NCBI RefSeq assembly: GCF_021023085.1
Contig: NZ_PGCK01000007.1
Span: 62,001-126,000, forward strand
Length of the DNA: 64,000 nt
Source: Methanooceanicella nereidis
GTDB lineage: Archaea; Halobacteriota; Methanocellia; Methanocellales; Methanocellaceae
Direction of reading: 5' to 3'
Part shown: positions 48,536-53,378 of the stretch, in pieces
Layout: every line of letters starts with the position of its first letter
Numbering within the stretch: position 1 is the first letter of the stretch
The notes under the pieces: model-generated
Database searches by the model: none
Told to the model about the DNA's origin: nothing
Seen by the model: only the letters and a program-made list of their open reading frames with translations
Made by a program: the position numbers and the translations under genes

Positions 48536-48967
48536 TTGGATAACTATGGTGTTGAAGGCGATAAGGGTATTATAAAAAATATGCGCGGATTGCTCAATAA
48601 TATTGCACGGGGGGCATTGATAGTCGCCGGCACTTTTTTTCTATTCGTCGGGATTATAGGCGTGATATTGCCTGTACTTCCTACGACGCCATTTCTTCTG
48701 CTCGCCGCCGCCTGTTATGCGGTAAGTTCAAAAAGGTTCTATGACTGGCTGATCAACAATAAGGTCTTCGGGAACTATATAAAGAATTATCGGGAAGGTA
48801 AAGGTATCGCATTAAATGCGAAAATATTAACAATTGGGATGCTATGGTCCACAATGGCGATATCCCTATTCATTGTTATGGAAAATCTATTACTTGTAAT
48901 GTTTTTGATATTGATAGCGACTGGAGTATCGGCCCATATAATGTTGATACCGACATTAAAAAAATAA
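48536..48967 (+). CDS. DUF454 (YbaN-like) membrane protein
   Basis: 143 residues from TTG 48536, chosen for 'ggtggg' six bases before it. Four membrane helices. The DUF454 hallmark 'GVILPVLPTTPFLLLAAACY' and the following 'SSKRFYDWLINNKVFGNYI' are clear. The family is widespread but of unknown function. It is divergent from the signalling operon. Confidence 0.88.
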   Translation: MDNYGVEGDKGIIKNMRGLLNNIARGALIVAGTFFLFVGIIGVILPVLPTTPFLLLAAACYAVSSKRFYDWLINNKVFGNYIKNYREGKGIALNAKILTIGMLWSTMAISLFIVMENLLLVMFLILIATGVSAHIMLIPTLKK

Positions 48968-48985: not shown

Positions 48986-49878
48986 TTATCCTTCTCGTCT
49001 ATTGATGATATTCATGATAGCCAGTATTGACATGAATGCTATCGAGCCCGATATCAAACCGAAACCCGGTGTGGCGGCAGGCGTAGGTGCGGTTGAAACA
49101 ATGACCTCGGAAGCCTGTGTCTCTACCGGCGGCACGTAAGGGGTGTCTGCCGGTGTCGGCTGGGGTGTCGGGATCAGTGACGGGGCGTGTATGATCTTTA
49201 CTTAACCATCATCGAACTTTTCGGTGTATGTAGCCGACATTGCGTAATACTGGCCGTCGTCGTTCAGCCTGAACGCCTTTATCTCTTTATACATCTCAAA
49301 CGGCGCTGACCTCAGTATCGTAGTGAACATACCGTTCTTATCTGTATATCCGTAAGGCATGTCCGTATATCCCGAATTCGTGTATGTTGTTATGAACCAT
49401 CCTGCGCCGACCTTGTCTCCGTAATGGTCATAGACCGTTATCGTAACGTTCGTCTTAGCGTCGCTATACGATAGCGATATGGGCTTTGCATGAATGTTCA
49501 CTCCATACGGTCTAGGCCTGACAAGTATGGCACAGGACGACGTGCTGTCATTCGACACCACCAGTCTGTTAGAATATCCATAAGCGACGTGATCTCCGTA
49601 TAAGTATACTTTATATTCGCCGGACGGGAGGTTTATGAATACAAAATTACCGTCCATGTCCACGGTCGTGTTAGCGTAAAAATAGTCTTCGGGAACAGAC
49701 GAGTTAAGGATACTTACAGCCACGGTAACGTCTTCGGGCACGCCGCCCGTATCTTTCATGACCTTCCCAGGATACTGCCCGTACTGGTCGCCCTTGCCCG
49801 TGCCCGCTCTGCGAAGACCGGAAATGTGAATGATATCACTAATAACCCTATCATTATAGTAATTATCATGGACCTCAT
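48986..49878 (-). pseudogene. Broken gene for a surface protein with PGF-type sorting signal
   Basis: Three pieces line up. Piece 1: ATG 49878 encodes a signal peptide, 'MIITIMIGLLVISFTFPVFA'. Piece 2, in a different frame, carries the exported domain from about 'GTGKGDQYGQYPGKV' to 'YTEKFDDG', with beta-sandwich repeats. It ends at a TAA (49202-49204). Piece 3, in the same frame beyond that TAA, is a Pro/Thr-rich linker, then 'TPGFGLIS', a hydrophobic helix and 'NRREG', which is a PGF-CTERM anchor. A one-base frameshift after the signal peptide and an in-frame TAA both interrupt it. Either is a pseudogene lesion; TAA recoding is not known in methanogens. Confidence 0.75.
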
Positions 49879-50009: not shown

Positions 50010-51452
50010 TTATATGATGCTCGATACGAAGATGAAGTATACGGCGAATATTGCGGAAACTATCCACATTACCGGGTGTACGTCTCTCCATTTGCCAGAG
50101 AACAGCTTTATTACGCAATATGCGATAAAACCGAACCCGATACCCTTCGCTATGCTGAACGTGAACGTCATAGCCACAATGGTAAGGAACGCCGGAAGCG
50201 CATCTTCGAGTATGTCGAACGGTATCTCTTTTATCGAGGTCATCATCAGGAAACCGACGATTATTAAAGCCGGTGCTGCTGCCGCTCCCGGTATAAAGTA
50301 TGCCAGGGGCACCAGGAGCATGGCTATCAGGAATAATACCGCCACTACGACGGATGTCAGGCCTGTACGTCCTCCTGTCGCCACCCCTGATGAACTTTCT
50401 ACGTATGTCGTTACTGAGCTAGCCCCGAACAAGCCTCCCAGCATCGCTGCGACCGAATCGACGAGCAGGACGTTCTTAAGCCCCGGAAGCTTGCCGTTCT
50501 TATCGAGCATTTTGCCCTGTCCGCCTACTGCGACGACCGTTCCCATAGTGTCGAAGAAATCCACCATCATGAAAGCGAATATGACCGGGATGATGCCCCA
50601 TGATAAAGCGCCCATGATGTCTAACTGGCCTATTGTGGATAAGGTCGCTGCGTTAGGTAATTCGACAATGCCGGAATAGCCTGAAGGCATGTTACTCGCA
50701 CCTGCCGGTAGCGCTTCTATGGTGCCGGGAAGTGCCGGATTCGCATAAGCATTGAACGCGAACCCTACCGTATCTCCTGCAAGGCAGATACCGACCGTTA
50801 ATATTGTCGTTAAAAGTATGCCATAAAGAATGCTGCCTTTTACCCTGAAGGCCATAAGCGCGATAATAATAAAAAGACCTATAAGTGAAATTATTACAGT
50901 CGGGTTCGCAATGTTGCCGAATGCTATGTATGTCGCGGGGTTAGCTACCATCAGTCCGGCATCCTTGAACCCAAGGAACGCTATGAATATACCTATCGCA
51001 ACGCCTATGGCTACCTTAAGCGACTTAGGGATCGCATCCATGACGAGCTCACGAAGGTTCGTCAGAACAAGCAGCGTTATCAATACGCCTTCGATGAATA
51101 TGATGCCCATAGCTGTCTGCCAGCTAAGTCCCAGCCCTATGACGACTCCATATGTCACTACTGCGTTAAGGCCCATCCCTGAAGCCAGTGCGAACGGATA
51201 TTTCGCCACCAGCCCCATCAATAGGGTCGCTATCGCCGCGGCAAGACATGTTGCCACAAATACTGCCTTAAAGTCCATACCTGCGCCGGATAATATTATC
51301 GGGTTCACGATAATGATATATGCCATTGTCATGAACGTTGTTATTCCGGCGAGCACCTCAGTCTTAACGTTAGAGTTCCTTTCCGTGATATGGAAATAGT
51401 CATCAAGGAAGGAACCTGAAGATACTTTCTTCATACTTTCCTGTTCGTACAA
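50010..51452 (-). CDS. Purine permease of the NCS2/AzgA family
   Basis: 480-residue membrane protein with 12-14 helices, of the AzgA-type adenine/guanine/hypoxanthine permeases. Hallmarks: 'NVKTEVLAGITTFMTMAYII' at the start, 'GMGLNAVVTYGVV', 'FMMVDFFDTMGTVVAVG' and 'SSVTTYVESSSGVATGGRTG'. It probably feeds purine salvage with adenine deaminase, 8 kb away. TTG 51452 is chosen because 'gaggtgg' lies six bases before it; ATG 51434 is an alternative. An upstream open extension looks non-coding. Confidence 0.9.
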   Translation of the reverse strand: MYEQESMKKVSSGSFLDDYFHITERNSNVKTEVLAGITTFMTMAYIIIVNPIILSGAGMDFKAVFVATCLAAAIATLLMGLVAKYPFALASGMGLNAVVTYGVVIGLGLSWQTAMGIIFIEGVLITLLVLTNLRELVMDAIPKSLKVAIGVAIGIFIAFLGFKDAGLMVANPATYIAFGNIANPTVIISLIGLFIIIALMAFRVKGSILYGILLTTILTVGICLAGDTVGFAFNAYANPALPGTIEALPAGASNMPSGYSGIVELPNAATLSTIGQLDIMGALSWGIIPVIFAFMMVDFFDTMGTVVAVGGQGKMLDKNGKLPGLKNVLLVDSVAAMLGGLFGASSVTTYVESSSGVATGGRTGLTSVVVAVLFLIAMLLVPLAYFIPGAAAAPALIIVGFLMMTSIKEIPFDILEDALPAFLTIVAMTFTFSIAKGIGFGFIAYCVIKLFSGKWRDVHPVMWIVSAIFAVYFIFVSSII

Positions 51453-51542
51453 AGGTAACCACCTCTTTTTTAAAATCGGTTGCTTAAGCTTATAATGATT
51501 TCCTTTAATAAAAAAATAATTATGTACTAAACTATTATGCAA

Positions 51543-51846: not shown

Positions 51847-52155
51847 ATGGTAGATTATGTAAAAAGAAAATCACCGTTCCTTGCAGCGGTATTATCATTC
51901 CTGATCCCGGGACTGGGACAGGCTTATGACGGTAAAATATTAAAAGGCGCAATTTTCTTCATAGGCTACATTATCCTGTGGGGAGTGATAACGGCAGTAT
52001 ATCTTTTCGGTGGCATAATAACGGCTATGTTCACAGCAGGCTTCGGGCTTTTATGCTGGCTTCCGATATTCTTCATCCCCCTCATAGTGAACCTGTGGGC
52101 GGCATATGATGCGCATAAGATAGCAGAAAGAATAAACATGGGAATCTATTATTGA
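51847..52155 (+). CDS. TM2-type small membrane protein, copy 1
   Basis: 102 residues: basic N-terminus, then 'FLIPGLGQAYDGKILKGA' (a hallmark of TM2-type proteins), two further membrane segments and the end 'YDAHKIAERINMGIYY'. It has no zinc finger. The strong site 'ggagggtga' lies before the ATG and a hairpin terminator follows. It is the first of three tandem paralogues. Function unknown. Confidence 0.8.
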   Translation: MVDYVKRKSPFLAAVLSFLIPGLGQAYDGKILKGAIFFIGYIILWGVITAVYLFGGIITAMFTAGFGLLCWLPIFFIPLIVNLWAAYDAHKIAERINMGIYY

Positions 52156-52165
52156 GATTAAAAGG

Positions 52166-52193
52166 GCATATGGAAGCATATGCTCACTTTTTT
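52166..52193 (+). terminator. Hairpin terminator after TM2-type copy 1
   Basis: Arms 'gcatatg' and 'catatgc' with a four-base loop are followed after four bases by a six-T run. It lies 11 bases after the stop codon and separates copy 1 from copy 2, so the paralogues have separate transcripts. Confidence 0.7.
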
Positions 52194-52284
52194 ATAGTTT
52201 ATATCGGAAATATTTTTATATTAAGGTATAATAGCAATATCATCTGGACGTCCGGTCATGGGCGTTCCGGTCAGAGGTGAAATA

Positions 52285-52767
52285 ATGAAATGTTATATCC
52301 ATCCGGAGGCAGACTCTACGGGAACATGCGTCCGCTGCGGAAGACCGGTCTGCTCCGAGTGTGCGGCCAGTATCGATGGGAATATAGTATGCAGGCAATG
52401 CAGCCAGGCTCCTGTCACCGGTACTATTGCATACGGGACAGCCCCGGCCACTAAAAAAGACCCTGTGGTAGCGTTACTTTTATCACTCATAGGCGGTCTT
52501 GTAAGCGGTCTTCTCATAGGGCTTGGACAGATCTATAACGGCCAGGTAAAAAAAGGTCTTATTCTTATCTTTGGTAACTTGATACTTGGCGGCGTCCTTG
52601 TCGCGGGATATGTGCTAATATCCATCTTTACGCTGGGTGTCGGGGCATTTTGCTGCCTTCCAATATTATTCATACCGCTGATCTCCTGGATATATGCAGT
52701 CTATGATGCATATACGACTGCCGAAAGGATCAACAGGGGAGAGGTCGTAGAAGATTGGTTCGAATGA
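52285..52767 (+). CDS. B-box zinc finger plus TM2-type membrane protein, copy 2
   Basis: 160 residues from ATG 52285 ('gaggtgaa' lies just upstream; the frame is open nine codons further). The N-terminus is a B-box-like zinc finger, 'CYIHPEADSTGTCVRCGRP' with 'CSEC' and 'CRQC', facing the cytosol. It is followed by a linker and the TM2-type module with 'LIGLGQIYNGQVKKGLILIF' and two helices, ending 'INRGEVVEDWFE'. Protein-protein docking to the membrane is a likely role, but it is not known. Confidence 0.82.
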   Translation: MKCYIHPEADSTGTCVRCGRPVCSECAASIDGNIVCRQCSQAPVTGTIAYGTAPATKKDPVVALLLSLIGGLVSGLLIGLGQIYNGQVKKGLILIFGNLILGGVLVAGYVLISIFTLGVGAFCCLPILFIPLISWIYAVYDAYTTAERINRGEVVEDWFE

Positions 52768-52889
52768 ACCCATCTGTTTTTTTTATTATTCCTAAATTAT
52801 GTAAAAAGCATCGAAATATTTAATAGAACATTCACGAATTATGCATAATATCGCTTAATGATCATGCGATAAGTGTTGAGGTGAATAAA

Positions 52890-53378
52890 ATGAAATGTTA
52901 TAAACACCCGGATGTCGACGCTGTGGGTACCTGTACCAAGTGCGGAAAATCTGTCTGCTCATCGTGTTCGATGAACGTCGCAGGAGCGCTCGTATGCATG
53001 TCCTGCGCTGAAAAGATGGCAGGACAGACAACCTATGCCGCACCTTCTGCCGCACCATCAGCAGGGCCGTCAGCCCAGCCATACATGGCCGCACCATCGC
53101 CGGCAGGGATCAAGATCAAGGAACCATTATTGGCACTGATACTTTCTTTCTTCCTTCCCGGATTGGGGCAAATATATAACGGCCAGATCAAAAAGGGTAT
53201 AATAGCGATCATAGGCTATGCTGTAGTTATTTTTGCGATGATAGTACTATCATTCTTCATTATCGGAATATGCCTGATACCTGTGATATTCATAGTATGG
53301 CTATGGGGCATGTACGATGCATACACGACAGCGAACAAGATCAATCGCGGAGAACCGGTCACCGACTGGTTATCCTAA
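52890..53378 (+). CDS. B-box zinc finger plus TM2-type membrane protein, copy 3
   Basis: 162 residues from ATG 52890, with 'gaggtga' upstream (the GTG inside that site at 52881 is rejected). Same layout as copy 2: zinc finger 'CYKHPDVDAVGTCTKCGKS' with 'CSSC' and 'CMSC', an Ala/Pro/Ser-rich linker (about 50-75), then 'FFLPGLGQIYNGQIKKGIIA', two membrane helices, and 'INRGEPVTDWLS'. Copies 2 and 3 share the order of domains and closing motif, so one came from the other by tandem duplication. Confidence 0.82.
   Translation: MKCYKHPDVDAVGTCTKCGKSVCSSCSMNVAGALVCMSCAEKMAGQTTYAAPSAAPSAGPSAQPYMAAPSPAGIKIKEPLLALILSFFLPGLGQIYNGQIKKGIIAIIGYAVVIFAMIVLSFFIIGICLIPVIFIVWLWGMYDAYTTANKINRGEPVTDWLS

Follow-up and report, generated by a model that had tools for sequence, protein, structure and literature searches.

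One of the two closest known systems for the gene studied here is the PGF-CTERM/archaeosortase A system (PMC11641113, PMC8875312, citing Haft et al. 2012 and Abdul Halim et al.). Within the Methanocellaceae, a second point of reference is provided by four intact relatives of the gene (loci L004, L007, L008 and L009), each of which is one uninterrupted frame of 288-302 codons. They share an architecture in which a signal peptide is followed by two β-sandwich domains and then by a Pro/Thr linker that leads into a TPGF or APGF tail. One is a paralogue in the same genome (G000:C1:277467-278015), with 38% identity to the window copy (E 2.5e-35), and its intact orthologues are found in the other three family genomes compared (G001, G002 and G003). 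The identity between the window copy and these relatives ranges from 31 to 38%.

The gene itself occupies positions 49878-48986 on the minus strand of the window, that is, of the whole stretch of 64,000 nucleotides that was analysed. Its ORFs and translations reveal four pieces, arranged in the order of a single surface protein. The first is a 40-codon ORF (49756-49878, minus strand), which encodes the 40 residues MRSMIITIMIGLLVISFTFPVFAERARARATSTGSILGRS followed by a stop. It starts with a hydrophobic signal peptide and, according to alignment and motif score, covers the mature start through the first β-strand (GSILGR). The second is a core of 185-199 codons (49205-49801, minus strand), in a different frame from the signal-peptide ORF and open from upstream of 49801 to an in-frame TAA. 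It is read as two domains that stay under the Pfam cut-offs, a CarboxypepD_reg-like β-sandwich and, after it, a Big_1/invasin-like Ig domain; the Pfam matches on the core, first of the CarboxypepD_reg/fn3_3 kind and then of the Big_1/invasin kind, are mostly sub-cut-off. Beyond the TAA, the core frame continues as PTPQPTPADTPYVPPVETQ and, further on, TPAATPGFGLISGSIAFMSILAIMNIINRREG up to a stop codon. This continuation holds the third piece, a Pro/Thr-rich linker (49070-49201, minus strand) that is shorter in the alignment than that of the relatives, and the fourth, a PGF-CTERM-like tail with a TPGF motif, a hydrophobic span, a basic end and the stop codon (48986-49069, minus strand). The tail has the form TPGF-hydrophobic-RRE, with TPGFGLISGSIAFMSILAIMNIINRREG immediately before the stop at 48986, and it aligns with the tails of the relatives.

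We propose that this is, in all likelihood, a young pseudogene of a lineage-specific PGF-tailed surface-protein paralogue that was broken recently. The first-pass annotation of this DNA had placed a signal peptide at one end and a PGF tail at the other; both are present, and all four pieces align colinearly with the intact relatives. It had also described the ends and the middle as otherwise clean, which agrees with the codon scores. The core scores +32.5 in its own frame vs −59.5 and −82.9 in the other two frames of the minus strand, and the tail scores +7.2 in its own frame vs −42.4 and −12.0. Codon bias is thus still detectable in the broken gene. Since the scores favor the gene's own frames and the intact relatives are colinear with its pieces, the interruptions are better explained as lesions in a real gene than by chance. 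We infer that the lesions are real and fixed and that the gene was once functional, and we infer the age of the lesions in the same way. What the gene did before it broke can be judged from its paralogue only.

The frame change was located from the point at which homology switches between frames. In the signal-peptide frame, GSILGR (49779-49762) is the counterpart of the first β-strand of the relatives (GSVSGK, ASISGR, GSISGH and GSISGK), where the pattern is G-S-I/V-S-G-K/R. Among the 97,505 six-residue stretches in the six frames of the window, only 5 score as well as GSILGR; for the rival reading of these bases, GQYPGK, the number is 241. Homology therefore follows the signal-peptide frame to 49762 and the core frame from about 49762 on, which places the frame change near 49762. 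The likeliest interval is 49756-49767 (minus strand), with outer limits of about 49756-49810. A frameshift had been suggested just after the signal peptide; the frame change itself is confirmed, but it lies about 16 codons past the probable signal-peptidase site. The second lesion is where it had been reported, just before the Pro/Thr linker. The TAA (49204-49202, minus strand) sits between the last residues aligned to the Ig domain and the linker, and none of the four intact relatives has a stop at this place.

The main rival explanation is that at least one of the two lesions is a sequencing or assembly error and that the organism itself carries an intact gene. The draft state of the genome (41 contigs) and the otherwise clean frames would both fit an error. 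However, two errors within one gene of 890 bases are improbable when no other broken gene is found in the 64-kb window, and the lesions lie outside homopolymers and tandem repeats. The count of broken genes was obtained from the Pfam profile coverage of 20 short or abutting ORFs; those with strong Pfam matches cover their main profile nearly completely, while several have no match and are uninformative. The fast evolution of the gene, as would be expected for a dispensable copy, also speaks against an error, which we consider unlikely overall.

The intact relatives further indicate which copy is the conserved one. In all four genomes, the intact gene adjoins a PfkB-type kinase gene (the kinase family was recognised by eye), and the window copy is therefore regarded as the extra one. 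The site of the window copy is marked by two intact neighbors, a DUF454 protein (48536-48967, plus strand) and a Xan_ur_permease (PF00860) family transporter (50010-51542, minus strand). Neighborhood comparison shows that the gene is absent from this site in all three relatives. G001 and G002 carry different genes on that side of their permease, and no copy of this gene is among them. A candidate same-site orthologue in G003, where the DUF454 and permease genes are also neighbors, was rejected, as the intervening gene encodes an unrelated DUF5667 protein. This secreted protein (L037 2722-3603, G003:C83) occupies the site that matches that of the broken gene, and so the secreted protein encoded between DUF454 and the permease differs from genome to genome.

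On the other side of the permease, the window contains three adjacent small membrane-protein genes (51847-53378, plus strand). A B-box-like zinc finger stands at the N-terminus of two of the proteins, and two match DUF5683 weakly. In G002, a comparable group adjoins the same permease. Separately, a protein of about 372 residues in G003 (L027 931-2055, G003:C195) has an N-terminal TIR domain (PF13676, E 1.3e-21) fused to CarboxypepD_reg-like and Big_1-like domains. It has no signal peptide; these two domains are of the kind found in Methanocellaceae surface proteins. This odd fusion is possibly defence-related.

The search for an intact allele, which the first-pass annotation had proposed as a check, yielded the intact paralogue and its three orthologues, none of which carries either lesion; a near-identical or same-site allele was not among the matches. 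For a near-identical allele, the genome contigs gave only a remote Chitinophagales match, and the viral contigs and phage records gave none. In the whole genomes of 100 relatives, the matches were limited to the conserved paralogue family and to weak β-sandwich hits. In the literature on Methanocella pseudogenes, this gene is not mentioned among the titles and abstracts listed.

The terminal branch of the window copy is 1.82 changes per site (alignment column), compared with 0.37-0.79 in the relatives, and the copy retains 21 of the 39 columns that are invariant among the four relatives. A stop would result from about 4% of the single substitutions possible in its frames. Without constraint on so long a branch, we estimate that well over ten stops would be expected, yet one is seen. 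Most of the divergence therefore appears to have accumulated while the gene was still coding, perhaps under relaxed constraint, and the break would be recent. The window copy is placed as sister to the paralogue of its own genome with support of 79/87, a weak placement given the long branch. Since this support is only moderate, the copy may be a duplicate made within the lineage, or an older or acquired one. Recent decay, one of the three outcomes that had been envisaged for this gene, is thus supported by the intact relatives, the extra-copy status and the otherwise clean frames.

The second of these outcomes, a phase-variation-like switch, finds no such support. The good preservation of both ends and of the middle could suggest reversible on/off switching, or programmed recoding in which a frameshift and stop read-through sometimes yield the full protein. 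However, neither lesion has a tandem repeat or homopolymer, and a search for inverted repeats of an invertible element at the lesions gave only pairs of 9 nt. A segment swap by recombination with the paralogue is also unsupported, as this sole paralogue in the genome is too diverged (38% amino acid identity). Recoding would require two events in one gene, and none of the relatives depends on it at these places. In methanogens, TAA is not known to serve as a read-through codon; some of them use TAG for pyrrolysine. Switching or recoding is therefore very improbable.

The third outcome, release of an unanchored form, is not supported for the present sequence. The signal peptide and the tail are in different reading frames, and the TAA additionally separates the core from the tail. 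Standard decoding gives the 40-residue signal-peptide product and possibly a 185-residue core without a signal, initiated at ATG 49759; the tail can be reached only past the TAA. Because the frame change cuts the signal peptide from the core, no secreted core, anchored or not, is produced by standard decoding, and a protein exported by this signal peptide would lack the core. At an earlier stage, the TAA alone could have given an unanchored form.

Reinitiation at ATG 49759 could in principle still yield the core, as a cytoplasmic protein. This codon shares bases with the TGA that ends the signal-peptide ORF (ATGA), and the 185-codon ORF has kept its coding bias. However, a core made in this way would have neither the signal peptide nor the first β-strand, and its domains belong to extracellular kinds; the relatives have no Met at this position, and homology continues through the ATG. 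We therefore regard reinitiation as highly doubtful. That translational coupling at the ATGA overlap yields the core as an intracellular version of the former surface protein is extremely improbable; were it true, mutation would have moved this protein to another compartment.

Returning to the young pseudogene, we propose the following course of events. In a Methanocellaceae archaeon, a conserved two-domain surface protein, presumably exported via its signal peptide and held in place by a PGF tail that archaeosortase A processes, would have gained a second gene copy, either by duplication or by acquisition. This copy would have been inserted between the permease gene and the DUF454 gene and would have evolved fast, with coding constraint still acting. 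It would then have been broken recently, by an indel within the first β-strand and by a nonsense mutation ahead of the linker. What it specifies today would be limited to a secreted peptide of 40 residues and, at best, a core that stays in the cytoplasm and has neither signal nor anchor. On this account, the case is one of ordinary gene decay and adds another young pseudogene to those of archaeal surface proteins. It would be a record, in Methanocellaceae, of a cell-surface paralogue that was gained, diverged fast and was lost, with a conserved copy still intact. For annotation, 49878-48986 should be marked as one broken gene, not as two or three small hypothetical proteins.

ArtA (TIGR04125) was found in all four genomes, including an archaeosortase A over the cut-off in the genome of the window copy (G000:C7:8896-9681, E 2.4e-76). 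The tail thus had its processing enzyme, and it was probably processed by archaeosortase A when the gene was whole. PF18204 gave no match over its curated cut-off in the window (E 0.001) or for the tail (E 0.1), and none was reported for the tail of the genome's own intact paralogue either.

Like the described PGF-CTERM/archaeosortase A substrates (PMC8875312, PMC11641113), the window gene has a PGF motif, a hydrophobic span and C-terminal basic residues, in a genome that carries ArtA. Unlike in them, its tail is under the PF18204 cut-off, and the frame change and the TAA sever it from the beginning of the protein. With the two-domain PGF-tailed protein of Methanocellaceae, it shares the signal peptide, the CarboxypepD_reg-like and Big_1-like domains, the Pro/Thr linker and the PGF motif with hydrophobic span and basic end. 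In contrast, the Methanocellaceae relatives have one open frame, a longer linker and a PfkB-type kinase neighbor, whereas the window copy is broken twice and lies elsewhere in the genome.
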